Translations under genes and position numbers: made by a program
Shown: one piece after another, positions 11,179 through 30,794 of the stretch
Layout: each line of letters begins with the position of its first letter
How positions within the stretch are numbered: position 1 is the stretch's first letter
From: a virus
IMG/VR virus record: IMGVR_UViG_3300037584_001746
Coordinates: 1 to 50,890 of that record
Length of the DNA stretch: 50,890 nucleotides
Strand: one strand, 5' to 3'
The notes under the pieces: model-generated
Database searches by the model: none
The model's input: the letters and a program-made list of their open reading frames with translations, nothing else
What the model was told of the DNA's origin: nothing

Positions 11179-13484
11179 TGGCGGCAACAACAGTAGATAC
11201 ACTTCTTGTTAAAATTGAGGCTGATCTCAGTAGTCTAAAGAGACAGCTTGCTCAATCTCAAGCGGCAACCCAGAGAACTGCTGGTAGGATGCAGGGTGCC
11301 TTCCGTAAAATGGAAGCATCTGTTGGTCTGCTTGTCGCTAGGTTTGGTAATTTAAGAACAGGAATATTGGCTGTTGGCGCAGTAATCGCTACAGGTTTGG
11401 GAATGGGCATTGCTAGAACAAATGCTCAGTTTCAAGACCTTGAGGTGACTTTATCTACAGTCTTTGGTGGCATGGAAGAAGGCCAAGCCGCCATGGAATT
11501 TATTCAAATATTCGCACAACGCACCCCATTTGATATTCAAACGCTTTCTAAGGCATTTATTCAGTTGGGTGGCGCGGGAATAAAGCCAACTGAAGAACTG
11601 CTTACGACCTTTGGTGATGCCGCCGCCGCTACAACAAACAGGGTCGCTTCATTTGAGGCTATGGTCAGGATTGCGACAAGAGCAGTGGGCGGTGGCCTTG
11701 GACTTGAAGAACTGGAGCAATTAGTCAATCAAGGCATACCAGTTTACAAGATATTACAACGTGAAATAAATGTTTCTCGTCAAGAAATATCTGAATTAGG
11801 CCAGACCGCTGAAGGCGCGGCAAAAATTATGGAAGGCTTGCAGAGAGGTCTGCAAAAAGATTTTGGCGGTGGCATGGCAAAGGCCGCACATAATTTATCC
11901 GTAATGATGTCCAATCTTGGAATTGCCGCAACTAATCTTACACTCGCGCTTGGTGAGGGCATTGGCGGTGTAGGGCTTACTGTAGCCTTTACATTCTTAG
12001 CTGAAACATTGACGCAGTTTGCCGTTATTTTAAAGCCTGTTGTCCATCTTTTGGGGGTGGTGTTGGCTGGCGCGGTGGCGGCTGTTGTTTTGCCATTTAG
12101 ACTTTTATCAGAAGCCATTTTGTTGGTTGCAAGAGGTTTGGTGGAGTTAGGCAAATTTGTAGGACAATTTGAAGGGTTTGAATTTATTGCAGATGCCGCC
12201 AATTCTTTAAATGCAAGCCTTGATGACCTTGCGGCCAAAATGAATAAAAACATCAAGGGGTTAAAAGACACAGGCAAAAGCAGTGAAGAAGCAGATAAAA
12301 AAATAGTCACTTTAAAAGGCGATATCCAGCACCTCAAAGACCAGTTAGCTAATATGCCAGAGGTTTATCTCAAAGCTAATGAGATGACCAGAGGCTTTAA
12401 CGATATGAATGCGGAACAGCTTCAAATAATAACGGACTTGATAGCTGAACATGACAAGCTGACAAAACAACTTGATGCAAAAACCAAAGCAACTACGGAC
12501 GCAACGAAAAAGGACGACGACTTAAAAAAGATTGTTAGTGACCTTACGTTTGAAAATGAGCAAATGGTCAAAGCCAATCTAGGGGTTTCTGAGTCAACGT
12601 TACAATATCAAGAAATTTTGCGAGCATTTGGCGGCGACTTAGGTGAGCATACGACTAAAATTAAAACCCTAATTAGAGAGCAACATGAGATAAGAAAAGC
12701 ACAAGAGAAAAGTGAAAAGGCGCAAGAGGAATACAATGAGAGGATAGAGGAAGGCACACAGCTTGCCGCCGCTTACATACCGCAACAACAAATTTTAGAA
12801 GAAAATCTACGCAAAATAGAAGATGCTTTTTATGCTGGTGAGATAGCGCAAGACGCTTTTAATGCGGCATCTGCGGACATAGATATGCAGATAAAGAGAC
12901 TTAACCCAGAATTTAGAAGATTGCATGATGCGGCCTTAAAAGCCGCAGATGGTGTTTCAAATGCTCTGGCAGACGCCTTTGTAAACGGCAAATTTTCACT
13001 TCAAAGCCTTGGTGATGTGTTCAAGCAAGTTATAAAACAAATGATAGCAGATGCTATTAAGGCTCAAATTATCAAACATATCCTTGGGCCAATATTTGGG
13101 GCAATGGGCATACCCATGGCTGGGGGAGGCGGGGCTGTTGGCTCTGGCTCGACCGCTAATACATTTGTGTCTGCATCAGACAGTTTTGCGTCAGGCGGCA
13201 GAATATCAAGGAGGGCAACTGGTGGTCCAGTGATGGTTGGTGAGCGTGGTCCAGAACTATTCATTCCACACAGCGCAGGGGTTATTAGGAACAACCATGA
13301 CACAATGAATATGATGGGCGGCGCAACACAGCCAGTTGTCAATCAAACCATCAATATTGATGCTGGAGTTTCTCAGACAGTTAGGGCAGAGGTGATAAGC
13401 ATGATGCCAAGAATAAAACAGGAAACCATTGCCGCTATGATGGATGGTAAGCGTAGAGGCACTTCAATTTCAAAGGTATTTTAG
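11178..13484 (+). CDS. Tail tape measure protein
   Basis: 768 residues, TAATG overlap. It begins with a coiled coil (SLKRQLAQSQAATQRTAGRM), then a hydrophobic AVGAVIATGLG segment near 70 and a FTEVGAA-like region at 80-220 with QLVNQGIPVYKIL. A long hydrophobic stretch lies at about 265-320, and coiled coils at 365-560. The C-terminus has the common GGGGAVGSGS and FASGGRISRRATGGPVMVGE motifs found in tape measure proteins. It sets tail length and leads DNA injection. The length fits a medium siphovirus tail. Confidence 0.9.
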   Translation: MAATTVDTLLVKIEADLSSLKRQLAQSQAATQRTAGRMQGAFRKMEASVGLLVARFGNLRTGILAVGAVIATGLGMGIARTNAQFQDLEVTLSTVFGGMEEGQAAMEFIQIFAQRTPFDIQTLSKAFIQLGGAGIKPTEELLTTFGDAAAATTNRVASFEAMVRIATRAVGGGLGLEELEQLVNQGIPVYKILQREINVSRQEISELGQTAEGAAKIMEGLQRGLQKDFGGGMAKAAHNLSVMMSNLGIAATNLTLALGEGIGGVGLTVAFTFLAETLTQFAVILKPVVHLLGVVLAGAVAAVVLPFRLLSEAILLVARGLVELGKFVGQFEGFEFIADAANSLNASLDDLAAKMNKNIKGLKDTGKSSEEADKKIVTLKGDIQHLKDQLANMPEVYLKANEMTRGFNDMNAEQLQIITDLIAEHDKLTKQLDAKTKATTDATKKDDDLKKIVSDLTFENEQMVKANLGVSESTLQYQEILRAFGGDLGEHTTKIKTLIREQHEIRKAQEKSEKAQEEYNERIEEGTQLAAAYIPQQQILEENLRKIEDAFYAGEIAQDAFNAASADIDMQIKRLNPEFRRLHDAALKAADGVSNALADAFVNGKFSLQSLGDVFKQVIKQMIADAIKAQIIKHILGPIFGAMGIPMAGGGGAVGSGSTANTFVSASDSFASGGRISRRATGGPVMVGERGPELFIPHSAGVIRNNHDTMNMMGGATQPVVNQTINIDAGVSQTVRAEVISMMPRIKQETIAAMMDGKRRGTSISKVF

Positions 13485-17987: not shown

Positions 17988-18012
17988 AAAAAAGAGGGGC
18001 AAAATGCCCCTC
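17988..18012 (-). terminator. Rho-independent terminator after the DUF932 gene
   Basis: On the minus strand, GAGGGGC and GCCCCTC form a 7-bp stem with an ATTTT loop, followed by six T. It lies 6 bases after the stop of the gene at 18019 and separates it from the small genes further on. Confidence 0.85.
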
Positions 18013-18018
18013 AGTATA

Positions 18019-18894
18019 TCATGCCGCAATAAGCTTGGTGTTTTCCCAACTTGGCTTTGCCAATACTTCGCTTATCATTGAATCTCTTGCCTTAGATGTA
18101 TTATGTGGCTTTAAAGTATCTTCTGTATGTGATGCCCAATATGTCATGGCGTTATATAAAGCCCATTTGTTTTTGCCCAATTTATTAGAATCATCATCCC
18201 AAAGCCTCATCAATGTATTAAGGCGAGACTCATTCCATCTAATTGTAGATGTTTTGCTCTTTACATTGCAAAGGGTGGCTTTAAAAAAATCCTCAGCCAT
18301 CTGTCTAGATACAGGTGTTTTCATCCACTCTTGCCACATTTCTTTTTTCTTAAAGAAGGCATCAACACCAGCAGTTATTTTAGATGCGGAAGCTTCTACC
18401 GATATGCCCTTTGTATGTTTAGAAATTGTTTCGGCTATTGTATCTGTATCGGCGCAACCATTTTTACACCATAGACGAAACCCTCTGGCTGATTGCTGAA
18501 ACGACCAAGAGCCATCGTATGAATTGTAAAATAGAACCTGAAACCTCACATAATCGCCAACATCTGGCTCAATGACCAAATCATTAAACAAGATACTACC
18601 TCGCATTTTTGCGCCATCTTCTAAAACATCAATTTTACAATCCATGTCTTTAGATACCTTTGCGTCTGCGACAGCATCCAGTATACTGTTCACCACATCG
18701 TCATGCTTTATGGCGGTATATTTAGACCCATGCACACCTAAGACCTTATTGGTGTCCGTTCTAACGATAGCCCTAGACATCTGTGGTGGAACCTCGACAT
18801 CTGGTTTGTTTTCTGTTTCAGAAACCGCCCATAGATTATAGGTGTCAACTGGAAAGTCCCATTCATTTTTCAAAATATTGATATTGCCGTCCAT
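18019..18894 (-). CDS. DUF932 phage/plasmid protein
   Basis: 291 residues from the ATG at 18894, which has AAGGAG 6 bases upstream; an ATG at 18900 touches that site directly and is less likely. The pattern RAIVRTDTNKVLGVHGSKY, then DVLEDGAKMRGSI and GFRLWCKNGC fits the DUF932/TIGR03299 family. The family is common in phages and plasmids, and its role is not established. It is the last gene of the leftward operon that starts near 19492, before the terminator at 17988. Confidence 0.8.
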   Translation of the reverse strand: MDGNINILKNEWDFPVDTYNLWAVSETENKPDVEVPPQMSRAIVRTDTNKVLGVHGSKYTAIKHDDVVNSILDAVADAKVSKDMDCKIDVLEDGAKMRGSILFNDLVIEPDVGDYVRFQVLFYNSYDGSWSFQQSARGFRLWCKNGCADTDTIAETISKHTKGISVEASASKITAGVDAFFKKKEMWQEWMKTPVSRQMAEDFFKATLCNVKSKTSTIRWNESRLNTLMRLWDDDSNKLGKNKWALYNAMTYWASHTEDTLKPHNTSKARDSMISEVLAKPSWENTKLIAA

Positions 18895-18918
18895 TTTCAT
18901 CTCCTTATGGTCGCCTGA

Positions 18919-19104
18919 TTAAACGTCATTCATTTGAATGGCGCGTCTTAAAACTCTGTTTCTTTCTGATTGTGATAGTTCAGAAATTACATTGAGAACC
19001 TTGATTGCATATCTACGCTCATGTTGAGCAGTAAATGTCTTGGTTCTTGGTTTTTTCAGCCCTAGCTTTTTTAGGGTTTCTGAATCAAGTTCTTCTATAT
19101 TCAT
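18919..19104 (-). CDS. Small basic unknown protein
   Basis: 61 residues, with ACGGAGGCGACC directly before ATG. It is helical and very basic (KKLGLKKPRTKTFTAQHERRY, then SQSERNRVLRRA), perhaps nucleic-acid binding. It belongs to the operon of the genes at 19134 and 18019. Confidence 0.5.
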   Translation of the reverse strand: MNIEELDSETLKKLGLKKPRTKTFTAQHERRYAIKVLNVISELSQSERNRVLRRAIQMNDV

Positions 19105-19133
19105 GGTCGCCTCCGTAAATAGAGACTGAGGGC

Positions 19134-19427
19134 TTATGCCCCCAGCCTTTCAAAACCAATAGGTTTAACAACAAAACATTGACCAATATCTGTGCGAATA
19201 ACATCGCCAACAGAAACGCTGTGCATTTTTTGGTGTCTGGTGATTTGTGATTCTAGTCCGATATTGCTAATCTCAAAAACCTCATCAAGGTTTGATGCCT
19301 CAATATCTGCAACAACTTCGTAATTTGCAAGAAAGTGAATTGGGCATAAATCGCCCATTATTCTGGCGTCAAGATTTTCTTTAGCCAATTTATCGCCTTT
19401 GGTATTTTGAAGGATTTGATATTTCAT
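19134..19427 (-). CDS. Small protein with YodL-like C-terminus
   Basis: 97 residues from ATG 19427, chosen because CCACGGAG lies 7 bases upstream. The C-terminal part SVSVGDVIRTDIGQCFVVKPIGFERL resembles the short YodL-like domain found in phage and plasmid proteins, whose function is unknown. It is the first gene of the leftward operon under the promoter at 19462-19492. Confidence 0.55.
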   Translation of the reverse strand: MKYQILQNTKGDKLAKENLDARIMGDLCPIHFLANYEVVADIEASNLDEVFEISNIGLESQITRHQKMHSVSVGDVIRTDIGQCFVVKPIGFERLGA

Positions 19428-19461
19428 TTTTTTCTCCGTGGTTTGGTCTTTCAATATAGTT

Positions 19462-19492
19462 AGACTACTCTTTCTGTTTTCATATGTCAACA
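19462..19492 (-). promoter_or_regulatory. Leftward early promoter with palindromic operator, copy 1
   Basis: On the minus strand, TTGACA (plus 19485-19490) is followed after 17 bases by TAGTCT, a weak -10. The palindromic element TGTT-N2-CATATG-N2-AACA lies at 19475-19492 over the -35. An A-rich stretch lies upstream. The same element occurs at 20501, 26464 and 40034. Confidence 0.65.
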
Positions 19493-19513
19493 ATATTAGT
19501 TAAAAAATGTTAA

Positions 19514-19540
19514 ATAAAAAAAGAGAGCCGAAGCCCTCTT
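19514..19540 (-). terminator. Rho-independent terminator with UUCG loop
   Basis: On the minus strand AGAGGGC-TTCG-GCTCTCT (one G-T pair) is followed by a T-run of 7. It sits 4 bases after the stop of the lipoprotein gene and just before the promoter at 19492, insulating two leftward operons. Confidence 0.85.
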
Positions 19541-19543
19541 TCT

Positions 19544-19837
19544 CTATTGTCTTGCCAAATGATGCAGTATTGAAAGGTTGTTGTTAGAGCCAAAGTCATC
19601 AAGAACGCTATGACCTCTGCCAGCTAAACACCTTGCCACAGCCTTATGATTTGCGGGGAATATTGCATAGTCAATTTGCTTTGCTAATTCACGACATTCC
19701 ATCAAATCTCTTTGGAATAATTGCGCTTCATCTTGGGATGCCCTCAAGTCAACGACAGGGCTGTAACTACAAGAGGTTAAAAACCCAAGACAGAAAGAAG
19801 CAAACCAGAGAATTGTTAGAAATCGAAAAATATTCAT
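19544..19837 (-). CDS. Small lipoprotein
   Basis: 97 residues, ATGA overlap with the gene at 19834. The signal peptide ends in a lipobox, FLTSC (Cys23), after a hydrophobic stretch (TILWFASFCLGF). The mature part has the pattern DLMECRELAKQ ... AVARCLAGRGHSVLD with two Cys, common in small phage and bacterial envelope lipoproteins. It lies in an operon of regulators rather than in the lysis region, so superinfection exclusion or an envelope-modifying role is conceivable. It could also be a spanin-like protein. Confidence 0.7.
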   Translation of the reverse strand: MNIFRFLTILWFASFCLGFLTSCSYSPVVDLRASQDEAQLFQRDLMECRELAKQIDYAIFPANHKAVARCLAGRGHSVLDDFGSNNNLSILHHLARQ

Positions 19838-20058
19838 TGTCTTGCCCTCTCCATCTTATCAATGAATGTCTTGGCTTGCTCCATGGTCATCCATCTATAG
19901 GGCGTATGTTCTCCGCATATCATTACATCAAGTGGATCAACCCTATTTATGAAGCGGTGGGTTGCCTTGCGAATTCCTTCTTCATCCTCATGTTCAATCT
20001 CTGGCTTGTATATATAGCCTTTATGTGAATATTCGGGTGCATTATGCCAATTAATCAT
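19834..20058 (-). CDS. Small unknown protein of the regulator operon
   Basis: 74 residues, ACGGAGACC before ATG, overlapping the XRE gene by 8 bases. It has an acidic EIEHEDEEGIRKATHRF stretch, then a HTPYRWMTMEQAKTFIDKM helix. No family is recognised. Confidence 0.5.
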   Translation of the reverse strand: MINWHNAPEYSHKGYIYKPEIEHEDEEGIRKATHRFINRVDPLDVMICGEHTPYRWMTMEQAKTFIDKMERARQ

Positions 20059-20263
20059 TTTGGTCTCCGTTGGTTTTTATCTTTGGAGTGAATTGAGCGG
20101 ACATTGCCAATATTAATTTTTCAATCCGTGGGTTTATTATTCGCCTACCATTTTCAAAATTAGAAATCGTAGACCTATCCTCATACCCGAGAAGTAAAGC
20201 CAGATCGTTCTGGCTCAGCCCCATATTAGATCGGATATTACGAAATTCGTTAGGTGTCATCAT
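20051..20263 (-). CDS. XRE/Cro-type helix-turn-helix regulator
   Basis: 70 residues, TAATG overlap with the gene upstream. A full HTH_3 domain is visible at residues 4-55: FRNIRSNMGLSQNDLALLLG, then STISNFENGRRIINP. The size equals a bare DNA-binding domain with no dimerisation or cleavage domain, as in Cro-like repressors. It lies in the operon of the operator-promoter at 20490-20518, so it is one candidate for binding the repeated palindrome. The other is the protein at 23512. Confidence 0.8.
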   Translation of the reverse strand: MMTPNEFRNIRSNMGLSQNDLALLLGYEDRSTISNFENGRRIINPRIEKLILAMSAQFTPKIKTNGDQND

Positions 20264-20457
20264 TAGGTTATACCTTCCTCGTCATAAATTTTTTGACGAT
20301 CATAAATTATATTTTCAACCAGTCCGATAAATTTACTGAGGGTAACGGTTTCGTCCCAAGATAAACCCATGAGTTGTGTTTGCACGTTTTCTGGCTCTGG
20401 ATTCATCACAATATTTGAAACAGCATTTTGTAGTTTTTCGGTTGTCCATTTGGTCAT
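20263..20457 (-). CDS. Small unknown helical protein
   Basis: 64 residues, ACGGAGGCC ribosome binding site. It is helical, with ENVQTQLMGLSWDETVTLSK and an acidic-basic tail. First gene of the operon 20457-19544 under the promoter at 20490-20518. The function is unknown. Confidence 0.5.
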   Translation of the reverse strand: MTKWTTEKLQNAVSNIVMNPEPENVQTQLMGLSWDETVTLSKFIGLVENIIYDRQKIYDEEGIT

Positions 20458-20489
20458 TTTAGGCCTCCGTTAGTTTCTATAGAAAACAA

Positions 20490-20518
20490 ACTATACACAA
20501 TGTTTTCTAATGTCAACA
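20490..20518 (-). promoter_or_regulatory. Leftward early promoter with operator, copy 2 (diverged)
   Basis: On the minus strand, TTGACA (plus 20511-20516) is followed after 15 bases by TATAGT. The operator at 20501-20518 keeps TGTT and AACA outer arms but has CATTAG instead of CATATG in the centre. It drives the gene at 20457 and, downstream, the XRE regulator. Confidence 0.55.
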
Positions 20519-20540
20519 TATGGAGCAAAAAAATAATTCT

Positions 20541-20564
20541 AAAAATGACCTCTCCGATGAGAGG
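20541..20564 (-). terminator. Rho-independent terminator after the AlpA-like gene
   Basis: On the minus strand CCTCTC-ATCG-GAGAGG forms a 6-bp stem followed by TCATTTTT. It lies about 20 bases after the stop at 20583 and before the next leftward promoter. Confidence 0.75.
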
Positions 20565-20582
20565 CCAAGTTAAGGGAGGAAA

Positions 20583-20816
20583 TCACAGTGTATCAGATTC
20601 GATCATGTTAGATAATCGTTTTGTTTCTTGTACGGCTTCCTCTTTCATTGTTTCTATGTGGTCATCTAAATCTTGGATATCCCAAACAATGCGCCTTTCG
20701 CTTATTCTAATGGGTTGTGGCAATTTATTTTGAGATACAAGTTTTGTAAATAAAGATGTTCCCATGCCTAGATACTCTGAGGCGGCTGTTTTGGTGATCA
20801 ATCGCTTTGCGTACAT
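20583..20816 (-). CDS. AlpA/excisionase-like DNA-binding protein
   Basis: 77 residues, ACGGAGG ribosome binding site. The N-terminal region KRLITKTAASEYLGMGTSLF ... RRIVWDIQDLDDHIE is the MerR-like winged-helix pattern of AlpA and excisionase proteins, including the W-x-hydrophobic-x-D-L-D segment. A charged helix follows. No integrase is visible in the window, so a regulatory rather than an excision role is more likely. It is the last gene of the long leftward recombination operon. Confidence 0.65.
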   Translation of the reverse strand: MYAKRLITKTAASEYLGMGTSLFTKLVSQNKLPQPIRISERRIVWDIQDLDDHIETMKEEAVQETKRLSNMIESDTL

Positions 20817-20830
20817 AATTTTTACCTCCG

Positions 20831-21154
20831 TTAAATTTTAATCGCTCTATGGTTCGCAGAAAAACTGCGCCAAGCCTCAATTTTGGCCTCTGCCGCGACC
20901 CTTAAAAATCTATTGTGTTCGTCTCGTTCAACGGCAATTTTTATTGCCTCAAGATGTTCAAGATATCGCGGATCAGAATAAGCCTCACGTTCTTGTGCGC
21001 CTATAGATAGGCCAGCGTGCTCCTTCATTATCATAGACTTCAGTGATTTTCTAAATTCGTCTAAATAAATTCTATTGGCTTTTGACTGCGCGGCATCTCT
21101 GGCACTGTCTCTTAGAAAATCAATCGCTTTTTCAACATCATTATCTGTGATCAT
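20831..21154 (-). CDS. Helical unknown protein
   Basis: 107 residues, AGGAGG ribosome binding site inside the end of the HNH gene. It is almost entirely helical and charged (DVEKAIDFLRDSARDAAQSK, then HLEAIKIAVERDEHNRFLR). Between an HNH nuclease and the AlpA-like gene; unknown function. Confidence 0.5.
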   Translation of the reverse strand: MITDNDVEKAIDFLRDSARDAAQSKANRIYLDEFRKSLKSMIMKEHAGLSIGAQEREAYSDPRYLEHLEAIKIAVERDEHNRFLRVAAEAKIEAWRSFSANHRAIKI

Positions 21155-21520
21155 TCATTCCTCCTCATCGTCATTATGAGGGCTTTGTTTCCAATATCTT
21201 TGGGCGGTTACCTTTCCGTAATCTGCAAATCCCATTGTTTCTTCAAAAAAAGCAAATTCATTGCCTCGCTTATGAAGCATTATGTGGTGTCGCTGACATA
21301 ACGGAATGAGGTTGCGGTCTGTTGCCTTTAGCCCCATCCCTCTTACACCGTCCCAAGGTTTCATAAGGTGATGCGCTTGCACCGACCCAAGACAGTCTCC
21401 AGAGGCCTGTAAACAGCATGGAAACGTGTGTATATAATCCATGTGTTTTTTATTTACGTAACGCTTTGGCTTAATGCGAGATTTTAACCTCATGCGTCCG
21501 AGTTTTTTTGTGTTTTTCAT
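21155..21520 (-). CDS. HNH-like nuclease (Ref/DUF968-type)
   Basis: 121 residues. A zinc-binding HNH-type layout is visible: CC near residue 35, Cys44, then AHHLMKPWD, the DRNLIPLC segment and QRHHIMLHKRG. This resembles the Ref/YajD/DUF968 recombination nucleases of phages. The N-terminus is very basic (KKLGRMRLKSRIKPKR), as expected for DNA binding. It sits in a recombination operon after an SSB-like gene. No strong ribosome binding site is visible. Confidence 0.75.
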   Translation of the reverse strand: MKNTKKLGRMRLKSRIKPKRYVNKKHMDYIHTFPCCLQASGDCLGSVQAHHLMKPWDGVRGMGLKATDRNLIPLCQRHHIMLHKRGNEFAFFEETMGFADYGKVTAQRYWKQSPHNDDEEE

Positions 21521-21522
21521 AA

Positions 21523-21927
21523 TTAAAACGGAATATCATCATCTAGGTCATCAACCTTCTTTTCTATCTGCTTCGTTTCGGGCTTATCTTCTTTTGGCTT
21601 GGCTGGGGCAACACTGACTCTGGTATATGGATTATTGTTTTTGTCCAGCCTCTTGTAACACCACATCATCAGCCTTTCTAAACCAACCATGATTTCGCCA
21701 GAAAGATTATAGCCATGCTTTTCTGTGATTTCTTTATTTACATAAAGACCGCCAGCTTTAACCCACCCCTCAAATATTTCTATTGAATTACCATCTTTGT
21801 CTTTAGATTGAGTTTTGGTAATCAACATTTCGTTTTTGAAACCTTCAATGTCAACATCTCCTTTTCTTACCACTTCGGTATTGGCGGCAGAAAAAAGATT
21901 GCCAGAATTTTCGTATTTGTTACTCAT
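21523..21927 (-). CDS. SSB-like single-stranded DNA-binding protein
   Basis: 134 residues from ATG 21927, chosen for AGGAGA 8 bases upstream; a longer reading from 21969 has no support. It has a central beta-rich part, then an acidic linker and a C-terminus of DDLDDDIPF, the acidic-Ile-Pro-Phe tip by which SSB proteins recruit partners. Its overall sequence is not a canonical OB fold by eye. The next gene upstream overlaps by 4 bases, and the annealing protein follows, supporting a recombination role. Confidence 0.65.
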   Translation of the reverse strand: MSNKYENSGNLFSAANTEVVRKGDVDIEGFKNEMLITKTQSKDKDGNSIEIFEGWVKAGGLYVNKEITEKHGYNLSGEIMVGLERLMMWCYKRLDKNNNPYTRVSVAPAKPKEDKPETKQIEKKVDDLDDDIPF

Positions 21928-22181
21928 ATGAGATTCTCCTGTCGTGGATCGTGGGTCAGGGGCTTCCATGTAATATCTACAAGCTGATATGAACCCCCAA
22001 ACTTAGATTGGTGATTTTGACCAGTGGGTTTTAATGCTTTCAATTCATCAACTGAAAGCTCCATGATTTGTTCTTTATGAAATAAACGCAAACCGCCTTT
22101 CTTAATTGCGGCTTGCACTTCATAATCACGCACCGAAACAAATCGCCCCTTCCAAAGTTTATTGACTTGCTTGGTTTTCAT
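21924..22181 (-). CDS. Small unknown protein of the recombination operon
   Basis: 85 residues, overlapping the annealing-protein gene by 23 bases and the SSB-like gene by 4. Basic N-terminus (KTKQVNKLWKGRFVSVRDYE), then AIKKGGLRLFHKEQIMEL. No family is recognised. The tight overlaps suggest a partner of the recombination proteins. Confidence 0.5.
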   Translation of the reverse strand: MKTKQVNKLWKGRFVSVRDYEVQAAIKKGGLRLFHKEQIMELSVDELKALKPTGQNHQSKFGGSYQLVDITWKPLTHDPRQENLI

Positions 22182-22647
22182 TTGTGATTTCCCTTGTCGT
22201 TATTTCTGGCTCTTTATAAGAACCTTCGTACATCTGCTTGCCTAAACCAAAAAGTGAAAGGCATTTAACCATACACCGCATTTTAGAATCACTGATATCT
22301 CTGGCATCGGGATTGGTTACTGCATCATGTTTGTAATTCGTTACCGCAAGCCACATATTTCTGCTAACGCCATTTATTGTTATTGTGCAATGAACGCTAC
22401 AACATTCATTAGGGTAATACATAACATCGTAGACTTTCCCACCACGATCGAATCGCTCAAATTCAATCTCGTAATCAGGGTAATGCTCTGCCAAAATTCT
22501 CAAGGCTACAGACCATTTCAGATAGAATAATTTTGTTACTTCTCCAGTTTGCCTATTTTTGGCTTCATTGAAAGAAACATCATTTGGATCAAATTCTATA
22601 TTAGAGAATGTTTCCCAAATTTGTTTATAAATTAATTGTTTAGTCAT
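22159..22647 (-). CDS. Phage single-strand annealing protein (DUF1071/Sak3-type)
   Basis: 162 residues from ATG 22647, with GGAGGCGACC directly upstream. It has the DUF1071 pattern: a YLKWSVALRILAEHYPDYEIEF region, SVHCTITINGVSRNMWLAV, then RDISDSKMRCMVKCLSLFGLG. This family anneals complementary single strands, together with an exonuclease, in phage recombination. The neighbouring exonuclease and SSB-like genes fit. The start overlaps the exonuclease stop by 8 bases. Confidence 0.75.
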   Translation of the reverse strand: MTKQLIYKQIWETFSNIEFDPNDVSFNEAKNRQTGEVTKLFYLKWSVALRILAEHYPDYEIEFERFDRGGKVYDVMYYPNECCSVHCTITINGVSRNMWLAVTNYKHDAVTNPDARDISDSKMRCMVKCLSLFGLGKQMYEGSYKEPEITTREITNENQASQ

Positions 22648-23404
22648 TGGTCGCCTCCATGCTCCAAAGGGTTTTTGCGATTTCTCGCTCGTTATCTGAC
22701 CATTTCCAATGGTCAAGATCGGGATATACAAGCTGACAACATTCAATGATATCGTTGCTGTAAGATAAAATTCTTTCTAAGGCTTTAGCCGCAATGGTGA
22801 ATTGATGTATGTGATAATTGACATTTTGTATTTCAAAACTGGTAACGCCTTTTTTAGATATGTAATCAATTACTGGCACTCTTTTTAATGCGTGTCCGTA
22901 AATTGATCCTTGTCTTGCGTGAGCGAATGATAATTTGCTAACAGCATTGCCTGTTTTCATATCACGAACCTTTTCACCCAATCTTAAATCGTAATAACCA
23001 ATTATTGGTACAGGTATGTCTGGCAACATAACCGTTACTTTGCCTTGTGCGGATTCGTATGGCTCTGATAATTCGGTATAATATTCTTTTGCAGATTTTA
23101 TGAACGCCTCAAGGTCGCCTCGTTCTTTTTTTAGCTTGGCTTCTGGCTGTTCATTTTTTGATTGTTTTGATTCGAGGTCAAATAAGCGTTGCGCTTCTGA
23201 TGTTAAATCGTCAAGTTTAAGGTCAGGGTTTTGCATCCATCTGGTTATGGTTTTATCAACCGCTGTTCCGCGCCATGCAGATGCGCCAACACCGCCATCT
23301 AATTTCCCAGCAATCTTCATTAAGCATCTGGCGGGTTGTTCTATGAACAGATTAATGGTGCTTGCAGATAAGTGCATAACATCATGGTTTTCAAAATGGT
23401 TCAT
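22640..23404 (-). CDS. PD-(D/E)XK exonuclease (RecB/Cas4-like)
   Basis: 254 residues, GGCGACC before ATG. The PD-(D/E)XK core is visible: a start with LSASTINLFIEQPARC, a central GYYDLRLG strand (Asp), then VRDMKTG (Asp-x-Lys) and the Gln-x3-Tyr helix ARQGSIYGHAL. This is the layout of the phage RecB-like and Cas4-like nucleases used with annealing proteins. It is the first gene of the leftward operon that ends near 20583. Confidence 0.85.
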   Translation of the reverse strand: MNHFENHDVMHLSASTINLFIEQPARCLMKIAGKLDGGVGASAWRGTAVDKTITRWMQNPDLKLDDLTSEAQRLFDLESKQSKNEQPEAKLKKERGDLEAFIKSAKEYYTELSEPYESAQGKVTVMLPDIPVPIIGYYDLRLGEKVRDMKTGNAVSKLSFAHARQGSIYGHALKRVPVIDYISKKGVTSFEIQNVNYHIHQFTIAAKALERILSYSNDIIECCQLVYPDLDHWKWSDNEREIAKTLWSMEATND

Positions 23405-23463
23405 GGTCGCCTCTAAAGTTATCTAATAATCGTTATAGTAATTAAATAACCTATAAAGTAAAC

Positions 23464-23474
23464 CCCAATTTGGG
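23464..23474. promoter_or_regulatory. Short inverted repeat between divergent genes
   Basis: CCCAA-T-TTGGG lies midway between the leftward exonuclease start (23404) and the rightward Cro-like gene (23512). It could be an operator for that regulator. It does not resemble the TGTT-N2-CATATG element. Evidence is limited to position and symmetry. Confidence 0.35.
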
Positions 23475-23511
23475 ATTAGACACAAAAATAAAATGCTGAT
23501 AACTTAAAAAA

Positions 23512-23724
23512 ATGTTATTGAAAGATTATTTATTGAAGCAAAATATAAAGGCAAAAGATTTTGCAAACCAGATTGGTTGCTCTTATGGCGGGGTTATGAA
23601 GTGGTTGTCTGGCGATAGATTTCCAAGGCCATTACATATTCATCATATTGAAAGAGAAACAAATGGTGCGGTCACGGCAAACGATTTCCAAAAACAAATA
23701 TCGAGCGATAAAAACAGTCGTTGA
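23512..23724 (+). CDS. Cro/YdaS-like helix-turn-helix regulator
   Basis: 70 residues. The N-terminal helix-turn-helix LKDYLLKQNIKAKDFANQIG, then SYGGVMKWLSGDRFPRP resembles Cro and YdaS proteins, followed by a short IERETNG segment typical of that family. No strong ribosome binding site: the upstream sequence is A/T-rich. It is divergent from the recombination operon and could regulate it. It overlaps the DUF1064 gene by 62 bases. Confidence 0.65.
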   Translation: MLLKDYLLKQNIKAKDFANQIGCSYGGVMKWLSGDRFPRPLHIHHIERETNGAVTANDFQKQISSDKNSR

Positions 23725-24007
23725 TGGTATTACCTTTCATTCTAAAAAAGAAGCAGAGCGTTATAAGATATTAGCGTTGCTCGAATCGCAAGGTAAAATT
23801 GATAATCTCAGATTACAGCCACGATTTCCGTTAATGGTCAATGGTGTAAAGATTGGTCATTACGTTGGTGATTTTATGTATTCATTGAACGGTAGGGAAA
23901 TTTTAGAAGATGTTAAAAGCAAAGTAACGAGAACGCCTGTCTATAAAATTAAGAAAAAGATTCTTGAAACCTATGACCCTCCTGTGGTCATCACAGAAAT
24001 TTCTTGA
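23663..24007 (+). CDS. DUF1064 phage protein (nuclease-like)
   Basis: 114 residues from ATG 23663, overlapping the Cro-like gene by 62 bases; ATG 23648 is an alternative. It has the DUF1064 pattern NKYRAIKTVVDGITFHSKKEAERY, then YVGDFMYSLNGREILEDVKS with Asp/Glu-x-Lys residues of a PD-(D/E)XK-like fold. The family is predicted to be nuclease-like (Holliday-junction resolvase-related), which is not proven here. Confidence 0.7.
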   Translation: MVRSRQTISKNKYRAIKTVVDGITFHSKKEAERYKILALLESQGKIDNLRLQPRFPLMVNGVKIGHYVGDFMYSLNGREILEDVKSKVTRTPVYKIKKKILETYDPPVVITEIS

Positions 24008-24013
24008 TATAAT
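23985..24013 (+). promoter_or_regulatory. Candidate rightward promoter
   Basis: TGGTCA (23985-23990), 17 bases, then a perfect TATAAT (24008-24013). It overlaps the end of the DUF1064 gene, 58 bases before the gene at 24071. Predicted from consensus match only. Confidence 0.45.
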
Positions 24014-24070
24014 CTGTTAGTCAAAAGACAAGTTACAGTCCATCGGGGCTACCAATAAAAAGGTAATCTG

Positions 24071-24556
24071 ATGGTTGTTGCTGAAGTGCTAACTGGAATT
24101 GCGCTTGTTCAAAAAAGTGTCGAGTTCATAAAATCAAATATATCAACAGCAAACGATATTCGTGACATTGCGAGTTCGATTGACGATCTGTTTGCTGGCG
24201 AAAAACAAACACAACAAGCTAGAAATAAAAAATCAAGTGGGTCAGGACTTGGTGACCAGTTTGGGGTTGATACAGTTGCAAAAGAGGTAATTGATGCGCG
24301 CCTTGCTCAAGAGAAATTGCAAGAGGTCGCAACGCTGGTTGATTTACGATTTGGTCATGGAACATGGAGTGGCATTGTGGCAGAAAGAGCAAAGAGAATT
24401 CAAGAGGCTAAAGAAGCCGCCGCCGCAGAACGTAGACGAATAATAAAAGAGGCTAGAGAGTTTGAAGAAAATATGAAACAGTGTGCAATCGTTGCATTTG
24501 TAATTATTGCGGCAATCGGTCTTTTTGTTGGATTATTTATGGTGATTTTAAAATGA
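24071..24556 (+). CDS. Membrane-anchored helical protein
   Basis: 161 residues, AAGG upstream. Long helical region with a positively charged coiled coil at about 90-130 (RAKRIQEAKEAAAAERRRII), then one strong C-terminal transmembrane helix (AIVAFVIIAAIGLFVGLFMVIL). Tail-anchored arrangement. Similar proteins occur in marine phages next to EF-hand membrane proteins. Function unknown. Confidence 0.6.
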   Translation: MVVAEVLTGIALVQKSVEFIKSNISTANDIRDIASSIDDLFAGEKQTQQARNKKSSGSGLGDQFGVDTVAKEVIDARLAQEKLQEVATLVDLRFGHGTWSGIVAERAKRIQEAKEAAAAERRRIIKEAREFEENMKQCAIVAFVIIAAIGLFVGLFMVILK

Positions 24557-24891
24557 CACAGAAAAAATTACAGCGTGGCTCCCGCTATGAACAACATGAT
24601 CTTGATGGTGACGGCATTGTGACTGATGATGAAATCGCCAGAGAGGAGCGAATGATAAAATTAGAGAACGCAGACAAGATGCAAGACCAGCAACGGTTGA
24701 TCTGTTGGGTCAGCGTCATATCAAGTGCAGTCTGTATTTTATTGGTGGTTTCTCCCCTGATAGGAGACCAGAGAGTGCCTTTAGTTACATCATTGCTATC
24801 AACCTATGTCGTAGCAAACATGGGCATCGTGGCGGCTTTTATGGGGGCGACAGCCTTTACCAGAGTCAAAGAAAATGGAACGCACACCTAA
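24553..24891 (+). CDS. Membrane protein with EF-hand calcium-binding loop
   Basis: 112 residues from ATG 24553, ATGA overlap with the previous gene. One canonical EF-hand loop, DLDGDGIVTDDE, lies at about residues 16-27. Two transmembrane helices follow (WVSVISSAVCILLVV and a region near 75-100). It is probably co-expressed with the tail-anchored protein before it. Its role is unknown. Confidence 0.7.
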   Translation: MTQKKLQRGSRYEQHDLDGDGIVTDDEIAREERMIKLENADKMQDQQRLICWVSVISSAVCILLVVSPLIGDQRVPLVTSLLSTYVVANMGIVAAFMGATAFTRVKENGTHT

Positions 24892-25045
24892 AGAATGGCA
24901 GTCCTTGGTTTTTAATTTTAAGTTAAGAATTGCGGCTATCAAAGAGTTGATGGAATCAGAATATGGGGCGGTGGAAAACGAGAAAACGAAAATTGGAGAG
25001 GTGGGAAAAACCAACAACGCGAGTTCATCAAAACCATCAGTGTAA
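24875..25045 (+). CDS. Small unknown protein overlapping both neighbours
   Basis: 56 residues, ATG at 24875 inside the end of the EF-hand gene (17-base overlap). Starts MERTPKEWQSLVFNFKLRIAA, then a Glu/Lys-rich tail. It overlaps the zinc-ribbon gene at 24963 by 83 bases, so one of the two may be spurious. No family recognised. Confidence 0.4.
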   Translation: MERTPKEWQSLVFNFKLRIAAIKELMESEYGAVENEKTKIGEVGKTNNASSSKPSV

Positions 25046-25151
25046 GGTTTGCGGTTCTACCCTTGCTTGTTATTCGTTTGATAATGGTAAAACTTGGTAT
25101 TGTTCAGAACATAAAGAAATCGGAGAAGCCGCAAAGCCTCCCCGATTCTAA
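24963..25151 (+). CDS. Small zinc-ribbon protein
   Basis: 62 residues. A Cys-x2-Cys ... Cys-x2-His arrangement (CKVCGSTLACYSF ... WYCSEHKE) suggests one zinc ribbon, with a basic N-terminus. It ends 5 bases before the convergent zinc-ribbon gene on the other strand. No ribosome binding site is obvious, and it overlaps the gene at 24875. Confidence 0.5.
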   Translation: MGRWKTRKRKLERWEKPTTRVHQNHQCKVCGSTLACYSFDNGKTWYCSEHKEIGEAAKPPRF

Positions 25152-25156
25152 CCGCC

Positions 25157-25615
25157 TTATCTTACCACGGAGTTGGCGGTTTGTTCTTCTTCATCATCTG
25201 GCAAATATTTGCGTTGCCCGATTGGTGCAAAAATCCATTTTCCAGAATTATCTTTCGGATTTTCAGCATAACATTTATTGCAGTACCATTGACCTTCAGA
25301 ATATACAGCCAAGAACAATTCGCCTATAGTTTGAGGCGCACCACCACAGCATCTACATGGGTCGCCATGCCAAGTGTACCAATAATGGCTTCCTTGGTTT
25401 TCAGTGCCAATATGGTCTTTGAACCCATGAAGTATCATTGTTCGTGTTTTTGAAGAATGGTCTAGTTCTCGTCTGATTTGTGTGAATCTCTTGAAGTCTT
25501 TTTTTAATTCAGCATGAGTTTTGTTACAGCATAAACACCTATTCTGATGAACCTTTTTCCCATCTACAATTTTGAACCATTCACCCTTATGGTTATTAAG
25601 TGCCGTATTCATCAT
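25157..25615 (-). CDS. Unknown protein with cysteine pairs
   Basis: 152 residues, TGATG overlap with the gene upstream. Three Cys-x2-Cys-type pairs are visible (CLCC near 27, PCRCC near 86, WYCNKC near 112), suggesting two zinc ribbons. The C-terminus is acidic. Last gene of the leftward operon from 26416. No known family. Confidence 0.55.
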   Translation of the reverse strand: MMNTALNNHKGEWFKIVDGKKVHQNRCLCCNKTHAELKKDFKRFTQIRRELDHSSKTRTMILHGFKDHIGTENQGSHYWYTWHGDPCRCCGGAPQTIGELFLAVYSEGQWYCNKCYAENPKDNSGKWIFAPIGQRKYLPDDEEEQTANSVVR

Positions 25616-25956
25616 AAATCCCCCTCAAATCCAATGATTGAAGATTCTTCATTCATGAGTTCATATTGACTGAAGTCATGGCAGTTATCTAACATCAGTT
25701 TATCCGCATCTTGGTCATTCAAATATTCGTGTACATATTGATGATGCCAATTTTCTCCAGATTCATCAATTTGAGTGGTTACGTTGTCGTATTCGTCATA
25801 TACATTCCAAACCTTGAGGCCATCTACAATTTTGAAATCATGTTCTTGGTCTGAAACATAATCAGTCGCCCATGCTTTTAAGTGTGCCTCATCAATCGTG
25901 ACATTAATTTGGAATTTTTTGGTGTCGACCTTTTCAATGTTTACGGTAATGTCCAT
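25612..25956 (-). CDS. Acidic unknown protein
   Basis: 114 residues from ATG 25956, which overlaps the upstream stop by one base (TAATG). Strongly acidic, with an N-terminal strand pair (DITVNIEKV, FQINVTID) and many Asp and Tyr residues. Acidity and small size are seen in DNA mimics such as some anti-restriction proteins, but no homology is visible, so this is only a possibility. Confidence 0.5.
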   Translation of the reverse strand: MDITVNIEKVDTKKFQINVTIDEAHLKAWATDYVSDQEHDFKIVDGLKVWNVYDEYDNVTTQIDESGENWHHQYVHEYLNDQDADKLMLDNCHDFSQYELMNEESSIIGFEGDL

Positions 25957-26231
25957 TATACACACTCCCAAGCTTGCTCAAGCCAACGCTGTGCTGTTTC
26001 AAAGTCAGGTGCGCCAACCGCAAGTGTCGCATTGATGGCGGCTAGTTTTTCTGCTTTTTCTTGCCTTAAATCTTCTTCAAGGGTTATCTGCAAGCCCTGA
26101 ATGGCAGATGCGTAATCTTCAAAAGCCCAGCCCTCTGTATGGCGAGGTCTTACGCCATGAACATCTTTGAAGGTGTCGCTATATGCCTGTGCCATGTCTT
26201 CGGTGGTTGCGGCTCTAATAAAATCGGTCAT
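25956..26231 (-). CDS. Small helical unknown protein
   Basis: 91 residues, ACGGAGACC ribosome binding site. It is helical with an aromatic RPRHTEGWAFEDYASAI stretch, then EEDLRQEKAEKLAAINAT. It resembles small phage proteins of unknown function. Second gene of the operon from 26416. Confidence 0.5.
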   Translation of the reverse strand: MTDFIRAATTEDMAQAYSDTFKDVHGVRPRHTEGWAFEDYASAIQGLQITLEEDLRQEKAEKLAAINATLAVGAPDFETAQRWLEQAWECV

Positions 26232-26245
26232 TTTGGTCTCCGTGG

Positions 26246-26416
26246 TTATTTGATAATTTCAATTTGTGTAGGTTTAACAATTTTGGGTTTTTTGTTAGAA
26301 ATAGAAATTACAATTTCATCATGCTTCCATTTGTTAATATCATTCTTAGGAGTTATCTTAATCACCTTGCCAATGGTGTTTCTAACCCTAACAATGTTTC
26401 CGATTTGAATATTCAT
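26246..26416 (-). CDS. Small beta-rich unknown protein
   Basis: 56 residues from ATG 26416, with CCACGGAGAC 5 bases upstream. It starts NIQIGNIVRVRNTIGKVIKI, which looks like a small SH3/KOW-like barrel, then a Lys-rich end. First gene after the leftward promoter at 26452-26481. Confidence 0.55.
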   Translation of the reverse strand: MNIQIGNIVRVRNTIGKVIKITPKNDINKWKHDEIVISISNKKPKIVKPTQIEIIK

Positions 26417-26451
26417 TTTAGTCTCCGTGGTTTGGTTCAATCAATATATAT

Positions 26452-26481
26452 ATATTACCATAATGTTTTCATATGTCAACA
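26452..26481 (-). promoter_or_regulatory. Leftward early promoter with palindromic operator, copy 3
   Basis: On the minus strand, TTGACA (plus 26474-26479), 16 bases, then TAATAT (plus 26452-26457). The operator TGTT-N2-CATATG-N2-AACA lies at 26464-26481. A stretch of more than 25 bases is identical to the copy at 40022-40051. It drives the operon 26416-25157. Confidence 0.75.
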
Positions 26482-26504
26482 ATATATGTAAAAAAATATC
26501 ATTT

Positions 26505-26822
26505 TTAATTAGAAAAAATATGCGCTTCTAGTTCTTCGTCTGTCAGGTCATCAAAATCTGGTTCTATTTCTAAACTAGGCATTGGTTTTCTTGGCCTGAG
26601 TATTCTTTTACCATTGCGTGAAAATTTGTTTTTTATTGTGGTTTTTGGTTTTTTCTTAACGTTTTTTTCTACCGCTGGGTAAATAAAGACGCTTTCCATA
26701 GTAAAAAATTTTGTTTTGCAATCTAAACATTCCCGCCTTCTGGTTTTACCATCTGGCATATCTTTGGGTGTGTAAGCAGAAACCTTATGATTTCTTGATG
26801 AACAGGTTGGGCAATGCAACAT
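26505..26822 (-). CDS. Zinc-ribbon protein, NrdR-like N-terminus
   Basis: 105 residues. The N-terminal zinc ribbon has CPTC at residues 4-7 and a second Cys pair in CLDC at about 33-36 followed by KFFTMES, similar to the zinc ribbon of NrdR and Ogr-like transcription factors. A very basic middle and an acidic C-terminus follow. It lies upstream of the promoter at 26481 with no clear ribosome binding site. It may be a transcription regulator. Confidence 0.6.
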   Translation of the reverse strand: MLHCPTCSSRNHKVSAYTPKDMPDGKTRRRECLDCKTKFFTMESVFIYPAVEKNVKKKPKTTIKNKFSRNGKRILRPRKPMPSLEIEPDFDDLTDEELEAHIFSN

Positions 26823-26923
26823 ATTTTTATCTTAATAAGCCAAGCATCTTTCGGTCAATGGTTTACAGCAAAAGATTTGTAGATTACCTTGTGATTTAGG
26901 CGACCAACAATACGGAGGTATTT

Positions 26924-27550
26924 ATGAGTTTTGATGCGATGTCTTGGGCGGCAAAACAGTCCTGTAAAAATTCTCTTACGAAATTAGTTCTATTAATGCT
27001 CGCCAATTATTCAGACGAGAACAATTCTACATATCCAAGTTACAAACATCTTGCAAAATTATGTGAGTGTAATGAGCGTTCTATAATGAGGGCTATAAAG
27101 TCATTATATGATGATGGCCTTGTATCGGTTGAAAAAAGATTTACTGATACTGGAAAGCAGACAAGCAATAGATTTATTTTAAATATGAATAGGGGTGACA
27201 GAATCGACACTCAGAGGGTGACAAATAAGACACCCAATACTATTAGAGTTATACAAGAAGATAAAACAAAGAGGGGTGACAAATATGTTCCTGAGTTTTT
27301 AGAATGGTGGAACGCATATCCTCGTAATGATGGCTCAAAAGCCAAGGCATATGAAGTTTGGAAAAGGGTTGTAGATAAAGATATTGACGTAAGGGATTTA
27401 TTTTTAAAGACCTGTAGGTTCAAAAGAACAACCATTGGAAAAGATAAAAAATTTATACCTCATGCCACAACGTGGTTGAATCAAAAAAGATGGGAGACAG
27501 TGCAAGAGGAGCAATCTATAAGTAAAAATAAAAACCAATTAGCGGGGTGA
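26924..27550 (+). CDS. Replication initiator-like protein (winged HTH)
   Basis: 208 residues, ACGGAGG upstream. The N-terminal winged helix (LVLLMLANYSDENNSTYPSY, then LCECNERSIMRAIKSL) is typical of phage replication proteins such as lambda O-like and DnaD-like proteins. The C-terminal part ends in a region with FLEWWNAYPRND and AYEVWKRV, then HATTWLNQKRW, found in such replication proteins. It lies just before the primase-helicase gene, so it likely recognises the origin or loads the helicase. Confidence 0.7.
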   Translation: MSFDAMSWAAKQSCKNSLTKLVLLMLANYSDENNSTYPSYKHLAKLCECNERSIMRAIKSLYDDGLVSVEKRFTDTGKQTSNRFILNMNRGDRIDTQRVTNKTPNTIRVIQEDKTKRGDKYVPEFLEWWNAYPRNDGSKAKAYEVWKRVVDKDIDVRDLFLKTCRFKRTTIGKDKKFIPHATTWLNQKRWETVQEEQSISKNKNQLAG

Positions 27551-27554: not shown

Positions 27555-29327
27555 ATGCAAAAATTACTTGATAATAGAATACAATTACGCAACTGGAAAG
27601 TTGGCGATCACAAGACCACTTGTCCAGAATGTTCCCATACGAGAAAAAATAAAACAGACCAGTGCCTTTCGGTAACGATAGAGCCTGATGGTGGTGCGGT
27701 ATGGAAATGCCACCATTGCGAATGGTCTGGGGCTGTGGCTGGGGCTAACTATAAACCAGATGGGCAATATGTGAAGCCAGTAGAATATAAACGCCCCACG
27801 CCGCCAAAACAGGCTGATGCAGAAAGCCAGCCAATGATTGAATGGTTCAAAAGGCGCGGCATAAGCAAAGAAACTGTTGCAGCATTTCAGATTACTAGAA
27901 CAAGCAATTGGTTCGGGAATGGTGAAGAGGCCTGTTATGCGTTCCCCTATCACAAGGATGGGCAACTGGTTAACATAAAATATAGAACCAAGGATAAGAA
28001 GTTTAGACAGGAGAATGGGGCAGAGAGAACGCTGTTCAATATGGATGCTGTTAAAAAGTGGTGGGATGAAACAGGCTCAAAGACAGTAATTTTTGTTGAG
28101 GGTGAAATGGATGTGCTTTCTATGTGGGAAGCTGGTTTTATATATGCAGTTACATTGCCAGATGGCGCACCCAAGACTGCAAAATTTGATGAACATGATA
28201 AAAGATTTCAAGCATTGCAGAATTGTGAATGGTTGCATGAGGCGGAGAAGGTAATAATAGCCGTTGATGCAGATGAGGCGGGGCAAGCGTTGAAGCTGGA
28301 ATTGATACATCGGTTCGGTAAAGACCGTTGCTGGACAATAGAGTACCCAAATAATCACGACATACAATGCAAGGATGCGAATGAATGTTTAGTGGAGCAT
28401 GGAGCCGATGTGTTAAGGGAGATTATAGGATTGGCGGCTCCACACCCCATAGACGGATTATACACTGTTAAAGATTACGAAAAAGAGGTTTTCAATATTT
28501 ATGATGGCAATGTTCAAAAAGCCATATCTACTGGTTTTGCATCATTAGATGAAATTTATAAGGTCATGCCATCTACATTCGCCATTGTAACTGGCATCCC
28601 AAATCATGGGAAATCTAATTTTATAGATCAGCTTTCAGTAAATCTAGCCAAGAACCATGGTTGGAAATTCGCCATTTTTTCACCAGAACACAGTACAGCC
28701 AATCATATAAGGCGGTTGTCAGAAAAGGTGATGGCAAAGCCGTTTGATTTCGGACCAAACCCAAGAATGACAAAAGAAGAACTTACAGAGGCTATGTTAT
28801 TTTTAGATAATAGGTTTCATTTTATAGAAAGCGAAGATTCATTACCAACAATAGATTGGCTGTTAACAAAGGCTAAATCAGCGTGCCTTAGGCATGGCGT
28901 TAAAGGAATTATAATTGACCCATATAATGAAATTGACGCTACCAGAGATGGAAACAAAAGAGAGGATGAGCATATCCGTGATTTGGTAAGCAGATGCAAA
29001 CAGTTCTGTAGAACTCACGAGGTTGCCATGTGGATGGTTGCCCACCCCGCAAAAATGCAAAGAGGCTCAGATGGAGTGTACCCGCCCCCAAGTCTTTACG
29101 ATATATCAGGTTCAGCGCATTGGAATAATATGTGTGATGTGGGAATAGTGGTTCACAGAGACTTCGAGGCCGATCAGACGCGGGTTATTATCCGAAAAAT
29201 CAGGGAACAGGGGCTGTATGGTTCGATAGGCGAGGCGTTCTTTAGGTACAACCTTACGCGGCATATCTATGAGGCAGAGTTAATACAGCAAGAAGCAGTG
29301 AGCCATTTTGGAGATACAGATGTTTGA
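27555..29327 (+). CDS. Primase-helicase (T7 gp4-like)
   Basis: 590 residues. An N-terminal zinc-binding domain (Cys23, Cys26, Cys52, Cys55), then a Toprim primase core with VIFVEGEMDVL (about 176-186) and VIIAVDADEAG (about 233-243). A RecA-like DnaB-type helicase domain follows with the Walker A G-x4-GKS (TGIPNHGKSNF, about 348) and a Walker B region at about 452 (GIIIDPYNE). This is the T7 gp4 architecture: it unwinds the fork and makes primers. Starts 4 bases after the initiator stop. Confidence 0.9.
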   Translation: MQKLLDNRIQLRNWKVGDHKTTCPECSHTRKNKTDQCLSVTIEPDGGAVWKCHHCEWSGAVAGANYKPDGQYVKPVEYKRPTPPKQADAESQPMIEWFKRRGISKETVAAFQITRTSNWFGNGEEACYAFPYHKDGQLVNIKYRTKDKKFRQENGAERTLFNMDAVKKWWDETGSKTVIFVEGEMDVLSMWEAGFIYAVTLPDGAPKTAKFDEHDKRFQALQNCEWLHEAEKVIIAVDADEAGQALKLELIHRFGKDRCWTIEYPNNHDIQCKDANECLVEHGADVLREIIGLAAPHPIDGLYTVKDYEKEVFNIYDGNVQKAISTGFASLDEIYKVMPSTFAIVTGIPNHGKSNFIDQLSVNLAKNHGWKFAIFSPEHSTANHIRRLSEKVMAKPFDFGPNPRMTKEELTEAMLFLDNRFHFIESEDSLPTIDWLLTKAKSACLRHGVKGIIIDPYNEIDATRDGNKREDEHIRDLVSRCKQFCRTHEVAMWMVAHPAKMQRGSDGVYPPPSLYDISGSAHWNNMCDVGIVVHRDFEADQTRVIIRKIREQGLYGSIGEAFFRYNLTRHIYEAELIQQEAVSHFGDTDV

Positions 29328-30700: not shown

Positions 30701-30702
30701 TA

Positions 30703-30780
30703 CTAGACAACACAATATATTGTGATAATATTTTCTTGCAATCGCATGATTGCCTCCGTGGTGAATGGTTTGGTCGCCTA
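30703..30780 (-). other. Isolated early-type leader with a 14-codon remnant ORF
   Basis: On the minus strand, GACCAAACCA, then CCACGGAGG and ATG (30747) match the leaders of the real early genes at 19427 and 26416, but the reading frame stops after 14 codons at 30703. No operator-promoter is visible upstream, where the terminator at 30795-30826 lies. It looks like the remains of a decayed leftward gene or an excised cassette. It could also be coincidence. Confidence 0.4.
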
Positions 30781-30794
30781 CACCAATGGTTTTT

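Follow-up and report, generated by a model that had tools for sequence, protein, structure and literature searches.

A four-copy palindromic promoter element in an uncultured phage genome, very likely the operator of a small XRE repressor

Results

The window (the whole stretch of DNA analysed, 50,890 bases of IMG/VR record IMGVR_UViG_3300037584_001746) contains four leftward operons, each headed by a copy of an 18-bp imperfect palindrome that covers the −35 box and part of the spacer in a leftward promoter, some 60-70 bases from the gene start (Table 1). Three copies, TGTTGACATATGAAAACA, are identical over the 18 bp, and the second reads TGTTGACATTAGAAAACA. An earlier note on this DNA had placed the promoters at 19462, 20490, 26452 and 40022; the observation holds, but these coordinates mark the downstream ends of the −10 boxes. 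Those at 26452 and 40022 were recovered independently by a neutral promoter scan, and the 15-nt spacer of the copy-2 promoter is sub-optimal. Every copy stands at the head of a leftward operon, as the note had also claimed. The operons end in terminator-like hairpins. They appear to be transcribed separately, contain variable accessory genes and lie among genes that run rightward. The leftward recombination operon starts at an element-free divergent region, and some leftward genes therefore fall outside the set headed by the element.

Table 1. Operators, promoters, operons and terminators in the window
Feature	Position	Strand	Remarks
Terminator-like hairpin	17994-18012	−	After copy-1 operon
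Copy-1 operon	18019-19427	−	97 aa (no assigned function), 61 aa, DUF932 protein
Copy-1 −10 box TAGTCT	19462-19467	−	Spacer 17 nt from TTGACA
Operator copy 1 (TGTTGACATATGAAAACA)	19475-19492	−	Covers −35 TTGACA (19485-19490) and spacer
Terminator-like hairpin	19513-19548	−	After copy-2 operon, just upstream of copy 1
Copy-2 operon, remaining genes	19544-20058	−	74 aa (19834-20058), lipoprotein-like 97 aa (19544-19837)
XRE/HTH_3 protein, 70 aa	20051-20263	−	Copy-2 operon gene 2; proposed repressor and autorepressor
Copy-2 operon gene 1, 64 aa	20263-20457	−	No assigned function
Possible degenerate second site (TGTTTTCTATAGAAAC)	20473-20488	−	Downstream of copy-2 −10 box; weak
Copy-2 −10 box TATAGT	20490-20495	−	Spacer 15 nt from TTGACA
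Operator copy 2 (TGTTGACATTAGAAAACA)	20501-20518	−	Over −35 (20511-20516); heads XRE operon
Terminator-like hairpin	20546-20567	−	After recombination operon, just upstream of copy 2
Recombination operon	20583-23404	−	Exonuclease-like, Sak, AlpA-like; no element at start
Cro/YdaS-like HTH protein	23512-23724	+	DNA-binding family; not favoured as binder
Terminator-like hairpin	25117-25148	−	After copy-3 operon
Copy-3 operon	25157-26416	−	Four small genes, no assigned function
Copy-3 −10 box TAATAT	26452-26457	−	Spacer 16 nt from TTGACA
Operator copy 3 (TGTTGACATATGAAAACA)	26464-26481	−	Over −35 (26474-26479)
Terminator-like hairpin	38540-38567	−	After copy-4 operon
Copy-4 operon	38833-39983	−	109, 63 and 169 aa (last with DUF7694); between rightward head genes
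Copy-4 −10 box TAGGAT	40022-40027	−	Spacer 16 nt from TTGACA
Operator copy 4 (TGTTGACATATGAAAACA)	40034-40051	−	Over −35 (40044-40049)

To score the whole window, a symmetric weight matrix was built from related sites. The four copies reached 23.2-24.2 bits, the next best position in the window 7.8 bits, and the maxima in five order-1 Markov sequences ranged from 7.3 to 14.5 bits. The four sites thus stand far above the background of the window and of the Markov sequences, indicating exactly four copies that did not arise by chance, and the view that four TTGACA promoters share a palindrome over the −35 box is borne out. The form TGTTNNCATATGNNAACA gave three window sites, against none for the pattern read backwards. 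The possible degenerate second site in the copy-2 promoter falls below any threshold, with no score from the operator matrix; it is present in the closest relative (G004) and absent from other lineages.

Several further features were observed in the window. The ribosome-site signature ACCACGGAG occurs on the minus strand at 19434, 26238, 26423, 30754, 39527 and 39990; across 13 contigs it was found before 54 leftward start codons and before no rightward one, also preceding genes that are not first in their own operon, and it may point to a common leader or to an additional level of control. An NrdR-like zinc-ribbon protein with homologues in several relatives is encoded leftward at 26505-26822, just upstream of copy 3. 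Neighbouring genes at 30152-32411 encode DNA methyltransferase, ParB-like and glucosyl-HMC-transferase-like proteins, a set that suggests modified DNA. A direct repeat of 300 nt (87% identical) lies at 1821-2120 and 50306-50605, the window's final 30 bases are found again at 2376, and the contig may have been broken inside the repeat.

We gathered relatives with the primase (27555-29327), which gave 80 virus loci, and with the 18-mer itself, which gave 11. Searching related phages, as the earlier note had proposed, was productive: the pattern TGTTNNCNNNNGNNAACA had 68 matches in 31 of 50 related marine virus records, compared with 2 when read backwards; some of these records nearly duplicate one another, and when compared over 34 bases the distinct sites number 50, those of the window included. 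Long contigs carry three to five operator sites each. When relatives are oriented by the primase the operators point leftward, and a near-symmetric site in G043 is likewise readable as a leftward promoter. The sites recur at similar positions relative to the primase, for example at about −740 to −1090. No nucleotide similarity to isolated phages was found for 19100-27000.

The consensus across relatives is TGTTkAC-N4-GTmAACA. Its arms, TGTTkAC and GTmAACA, are conserved and its 4-bp centre (ATAT and ATTA in the window) varies, and the CATATG or CATTAG core originally proposed was therefore over-specified. The matrix sites were collected with the arm pattern, so that the invariance of the arms is partly by construction; a census of every TTGACA upstream of a called gene, in which the operator was not required, avoids this. 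With a second half-site defined as at least four of five matches to AAACA, it was present at 41 of 45 distinct leftward boxes and at none of 5 rightward boxes in the relatives. The statement that rightward genes lack the element thus holds beyond the window. Most sites have a −10 box at 16-18 nt after TTGACA; matches to TATAAT there averaged 4.08 of 6, compared with 2.98 (s.d. 0.13) in shuffled downstream sequence, and the spacer in relatives is mostly 17. In the one asymmetric pair between the arms, G is required by the −35 TTGACA and the opposite arm holds the symmetric partner of T, as would be expected if a palindromic operator had to accommodate a −35 box.

The copies within a genome resemble one another. 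Agreement at variable operator positions was 0.77 within and 0.56 between genomes, a difference reached in 0 of 5,000 permutations, in tests uncorrected for common descent among element-bearing relatives that all belong to one clade. The right arm is of the GAAAACA, GTAAACA or GCAAACA type, with all copies in any one genome shifting together. Sister lineages L047 and L048 have GGTTGAC-N4-GTCAA promoters, in L048 upstream of a diverged XRE gene; this variant would fit co-evolution of operator and XRE protein, two contigs being too few to go further. In the same scan, no clear element was found for the XRE genes of L054, L056 and L046, except for a one-mismatch variant in L046.

The second gene of the copy-2 operon encodes the candidate repressor. 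The 70-residue product matches Pfam HTH_3 (1.9e-08; 34.6 bits, curated cut-off 23), and a structure model built from ten sequences (pLDDT 87) shows a four-helix HTH fold (helices 4-13, 18-25, 30-37 and 45-58), placing it among XRE/HTH_3 DNA-binding proteins; helix 30-37 is the likely recognition helix in this model. The fold matches, headed by Aca2 of phage ZF40, the HigA2 antitoxin and C proteins, have the weak E-values usual for so small a fold. PDB sequence matches include C.BclI and C.AhdI, its best natural sequence relatives with a solved structure. Homologues are bare HTH proteins of 65-78 residues, and tblastn found none among isolated phages.

Linkage of this protein to the element is close. 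Among contigs reaching the locus, 16 of 16 have an XRE homologue downstream of the element and on the same strand (in G041 the elements nearest to it have one mismatch), and when the operons headed by the element were compared in 12 contigs, it alone among the families was present in every one of the 11 contigs extending to the locus. This conservation partly reflects common descent, because all element-bearing relatives form one clade. When new virus loci were chosen by TGTTGACANTRGTAAACA alone, the XRE gene lay downstream of the element in 7 of the 8 loci containing it; several other TGTTGACANTRGTAAACA matches lack a −10 box or ribosome site and are probably due to chance. The presence of the XRE gene downstream of the element, in the same direction, in every contig that reaches the locus points to autoregulation, and the suggestion that the protein controls itself through copy 2 has thereby gained support. 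One recognition-helix residue is N in proteins of the window type and H, R or L in the GTAAACA types; the suggestion that operator and recognition helix change together is confounded by phylogeny.

The cargo of these operons turns over rapidly, half of its families (34 of 68) being limited to one of the phage contigs compared. Named products in the window include the DUF932 and DUF7694 proteins and, further downstream, a 2OG-Fe(II) oxygenase; those in relatives include an amidoligase, a GGACT-like protein and a cell-wall hydrolase. Searches of Pfam and PHROGs with the element-headed genes of the window gave no match to an anti-CRISPR family, and most genes matched nothing. The amidoligase and GGACT-like pair lies under the element in G033, G017 and G011, in a leftward operon about 5-6.5 kb after the primase, and is a possible peptide-modifying cassette. 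The hydrolase sits in the XRE operon of some relatives, which calls for caution in describing all cargo as early; that part of the earlier note is unsupported.

Discussion

We consider it very likely that the element is the operator of a dimeric repressor encoded by the phage, with the 70-residue XRE protein as the foremost candidate. A dimer of this protein would bind TGTTkAC-N4-GTmAACA, covering the −35 box and first part of the spacer of four promoters of the host sigma70 type, and would exclude RNA polymerase from them. Sequence and comparison establish the sites, their place in the promoters and their orientation, the terminators, the conservation and the linkage to the XRE gene; we infer the binding, dimerisation and repression, as well as the early timing. 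On entry, all four leftward operons would fire at once from host sigma70 promoters; the XRE protein would then build up from the copy-2 operon, whose own promoter carries the operator, and this negative-feedback loop would shut all four operons together. Shutting copies 3 and 4, which lie among rightward genes, might also clear opposing transcription. A site centred near −28 and over the −35 box would suit repression better than activation, and we do not favour an activator. The proposal of a single phage repressor for several scattered leftward operons is supported by these comparative data.

The same operator-repressor core could serve a different purpose, with the XRE protein acting as an immunity repressor and keeping the leftward operons silent in a prophage carried, for instance, in plasmid-like form. 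Dispersed operators are typical of temperate phages such as P1, Cluster A mycobacteriophages and SPbeta (PMC8546580, PMC6550527, PMC10516654), and the phage has a ParB-like gene. We nevertheless regard lysogeny as unlikely, although the phage might be carried as a plasmid: the XRE protein is a bare HTH of 65-78 residues, and the replication, recombination and late rightward promoters lack the element. No tyrosine or serine recombinase of the kind that marks an integrating temperate phage was found in the window or its relatives (PF00589 in 0 of 20 records and PF00239 in 0 of 12, the relatives being partial contigs). A pattern search of 84,980 species genomes returned no capsid or primase relatives, so that neither a host nor a prophage state can be assigned. 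The capsid has its best relatives among phages of alphaproteobacteria, which gives no more than a hint of the host.

It is improbable that the operator is bound by another phage protein, with the XRE gene a bystander in its operon. The Cro/YdaS-like protein encoded at 23512, which had been put forward as a possible binder, and the AlpA-like protein encoded at 20583 both come from DNA-binding families, and the former lies at a divergent, switch-like locus. Against this, several contigs that carry the element and extend across these positions have no member of one or the other family: proteins like that at 23512 were not found in G002, G023, G024, G026, G030, G041 or G043, nor AlpA-like proteins in G023, G024 or G026, and the matrix scan gave no element in the divergent promoter region (23405-23511). 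This region, between the exonuclease-like and Cro-like genes, contains the palindrome CCCAATTTGGG at 23464-23474 and may be a separate switch. We also observed, in an element-headed operon of G033 (12315-12710 in primase orientation, locus L106), a 131-residue protein with a HEIGH metallopeptidase-like motif. Its operon adjoins the XRE operon, and the gene is also present in G031, G017, G011 and G041 and lacking from the window; the protein has no Pfam match and might act as an ImmA-like antirepressor.

Overlap with −35 boxes is common among host regulators, and the promoters resemble ordinary host sigma70 promoters; the phage might therefore have co-opted the operator of a host regulator, so that its operons track host physiology. 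This reading is very improbable given the linkage of the XRE gene to the element at nearly every place where it was found and the right arm that shifts in step across the copies of a genome, as for a co-evolving phage regulator, a pattern that different hosts could mimic. It is extremely improbable that a strong promoter with its leader (the ACCACGGAG ribosome site) was recently duplicated to give the four copies and that they have no regulator: copies 3 and 4 do have additional sequence in common (TTATGGTA, ATATTGA), as copies 1, 3 and 4 have the ACCACGGAG leader, but relatives retain both outer arms, even the downstream half-site, which is no promoter element, whereas the centre and the remaining spacer are variable.

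A single self-limiting switch, with the XRE protein as its favoured repressor, probably governs accessory genes that are scattered over the genome and change fast. The operator sequence alone marks co-regulated accessory operons in uncultured marine phages and comes paired with a candidate repressor, which makes the circuit testable with synthetic promoters in a laboratory strain. Cargo limited to single contigs is as expected of genes under local selection, for example for counter-defence. It is possible, although doubtful, that the set is a tailed-phage counterpart of the archaeal Aca8 regulon, a shut-off switch acting phage-wide on scattered operons, with fast-changing cargo enriched in counter-defence and host-takeover genes. 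If so, the operator could be used as a search handle to mine such genes in uncultured marine phages, as has been done with the archaeal Aca8 sequence (PMC11065993).

Comparison with known systems

Lambda-type CI and Cro systems are defined by a C-terminal peptidase or oligomerisation domain and by operators clustered at one divergent switch; here the protein is a bare HTH of 70 residues and the operators are dispersed, heading leftward operons. HigA and C proteins autoregulate their own operons. The restriction-modification C proteins C.BclI and C.AhdI are, like the XRE protein, bare XRE HTH proteins of similar size; C proteins regulate one locus, by activation and repression, and unlike them the XRE protein is not linked to a restriction-modification operon. 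A limited literature search found no report of a tailed phage in which an XRE protein controls an operator set of this kind.

Among phages with dispersed operators, P1 has 22 asymmetric C1 sites per genome, 17-mers that serve lysogeny (PMC8546580). As proposed for the window, a single repressor acts in P1 at many operators scattered over the genome and regulates itself, but the window has four copies of an 18-bp element with palindromic arms that has no sequence relation to the asymmetric 17-bp ATTGCTCTAATAAATTT of P1, and lysogeny genes were not found here. Cluster A mycobacteriophages have 20-30 sites, mostly away from promoters, that block elongation (PMC6550527); their stoperators likewise keep one orientation relative to transcription and co-vary in motif with the repressor of the genome. 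We rejected a stoperator function here, where the matrix gives four window sites, all at promoters and none elsewhere. In SPbeta, the repeated intergenic SPBRE, also first noticed by sequence analysis, is the site of the master repressor MrpR at several promoters; MrpR is tyrosine-recombinase-like, maintains lysogeny and recognizes a 15-bp motif (PMC10516654).

An Aca protein regulates the operon that encodes it, by way of an inverted repeat located in the core promoter (PMC9410906), and Aca2 is the best fold match of the XRE protein. As in these bacterial systems, a small HTH gene lies inside an operon with an inverted repeat in its core promoter, here the operon headed by copy 2 and its equivalent in all relatives reaching the locus. 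Aca proteins repress their own acr-aca operon (PMC9410906), whereas here each genome has the operator at four or five operons, and Pfam and PHROGs searches with the element-headed genes of the window identified no acr gene. The circuit may thus be thought of as an Aca-type autorepressor spread over several operons. Its closest analogue is the Aca8-type early regulon of the archaeal rudivirus SIRV2, where one virus-specific regulatory sequence, placed around a strong promoter, stands ahead of aca8 and of many early genes, and the HTH protein is thought to shut the genes off (PMC11065993). Both have a conserved promoter sequence before many small accessory genes and a small HTH gene. SIRV2 uses archaeal TATA/BRE promoters, a winged-HTH protein and mostly single genes shown to be early (PMC11065993); the window has sigma70 promoters, an XRE protein and multi-gene leftward operons with terminators.
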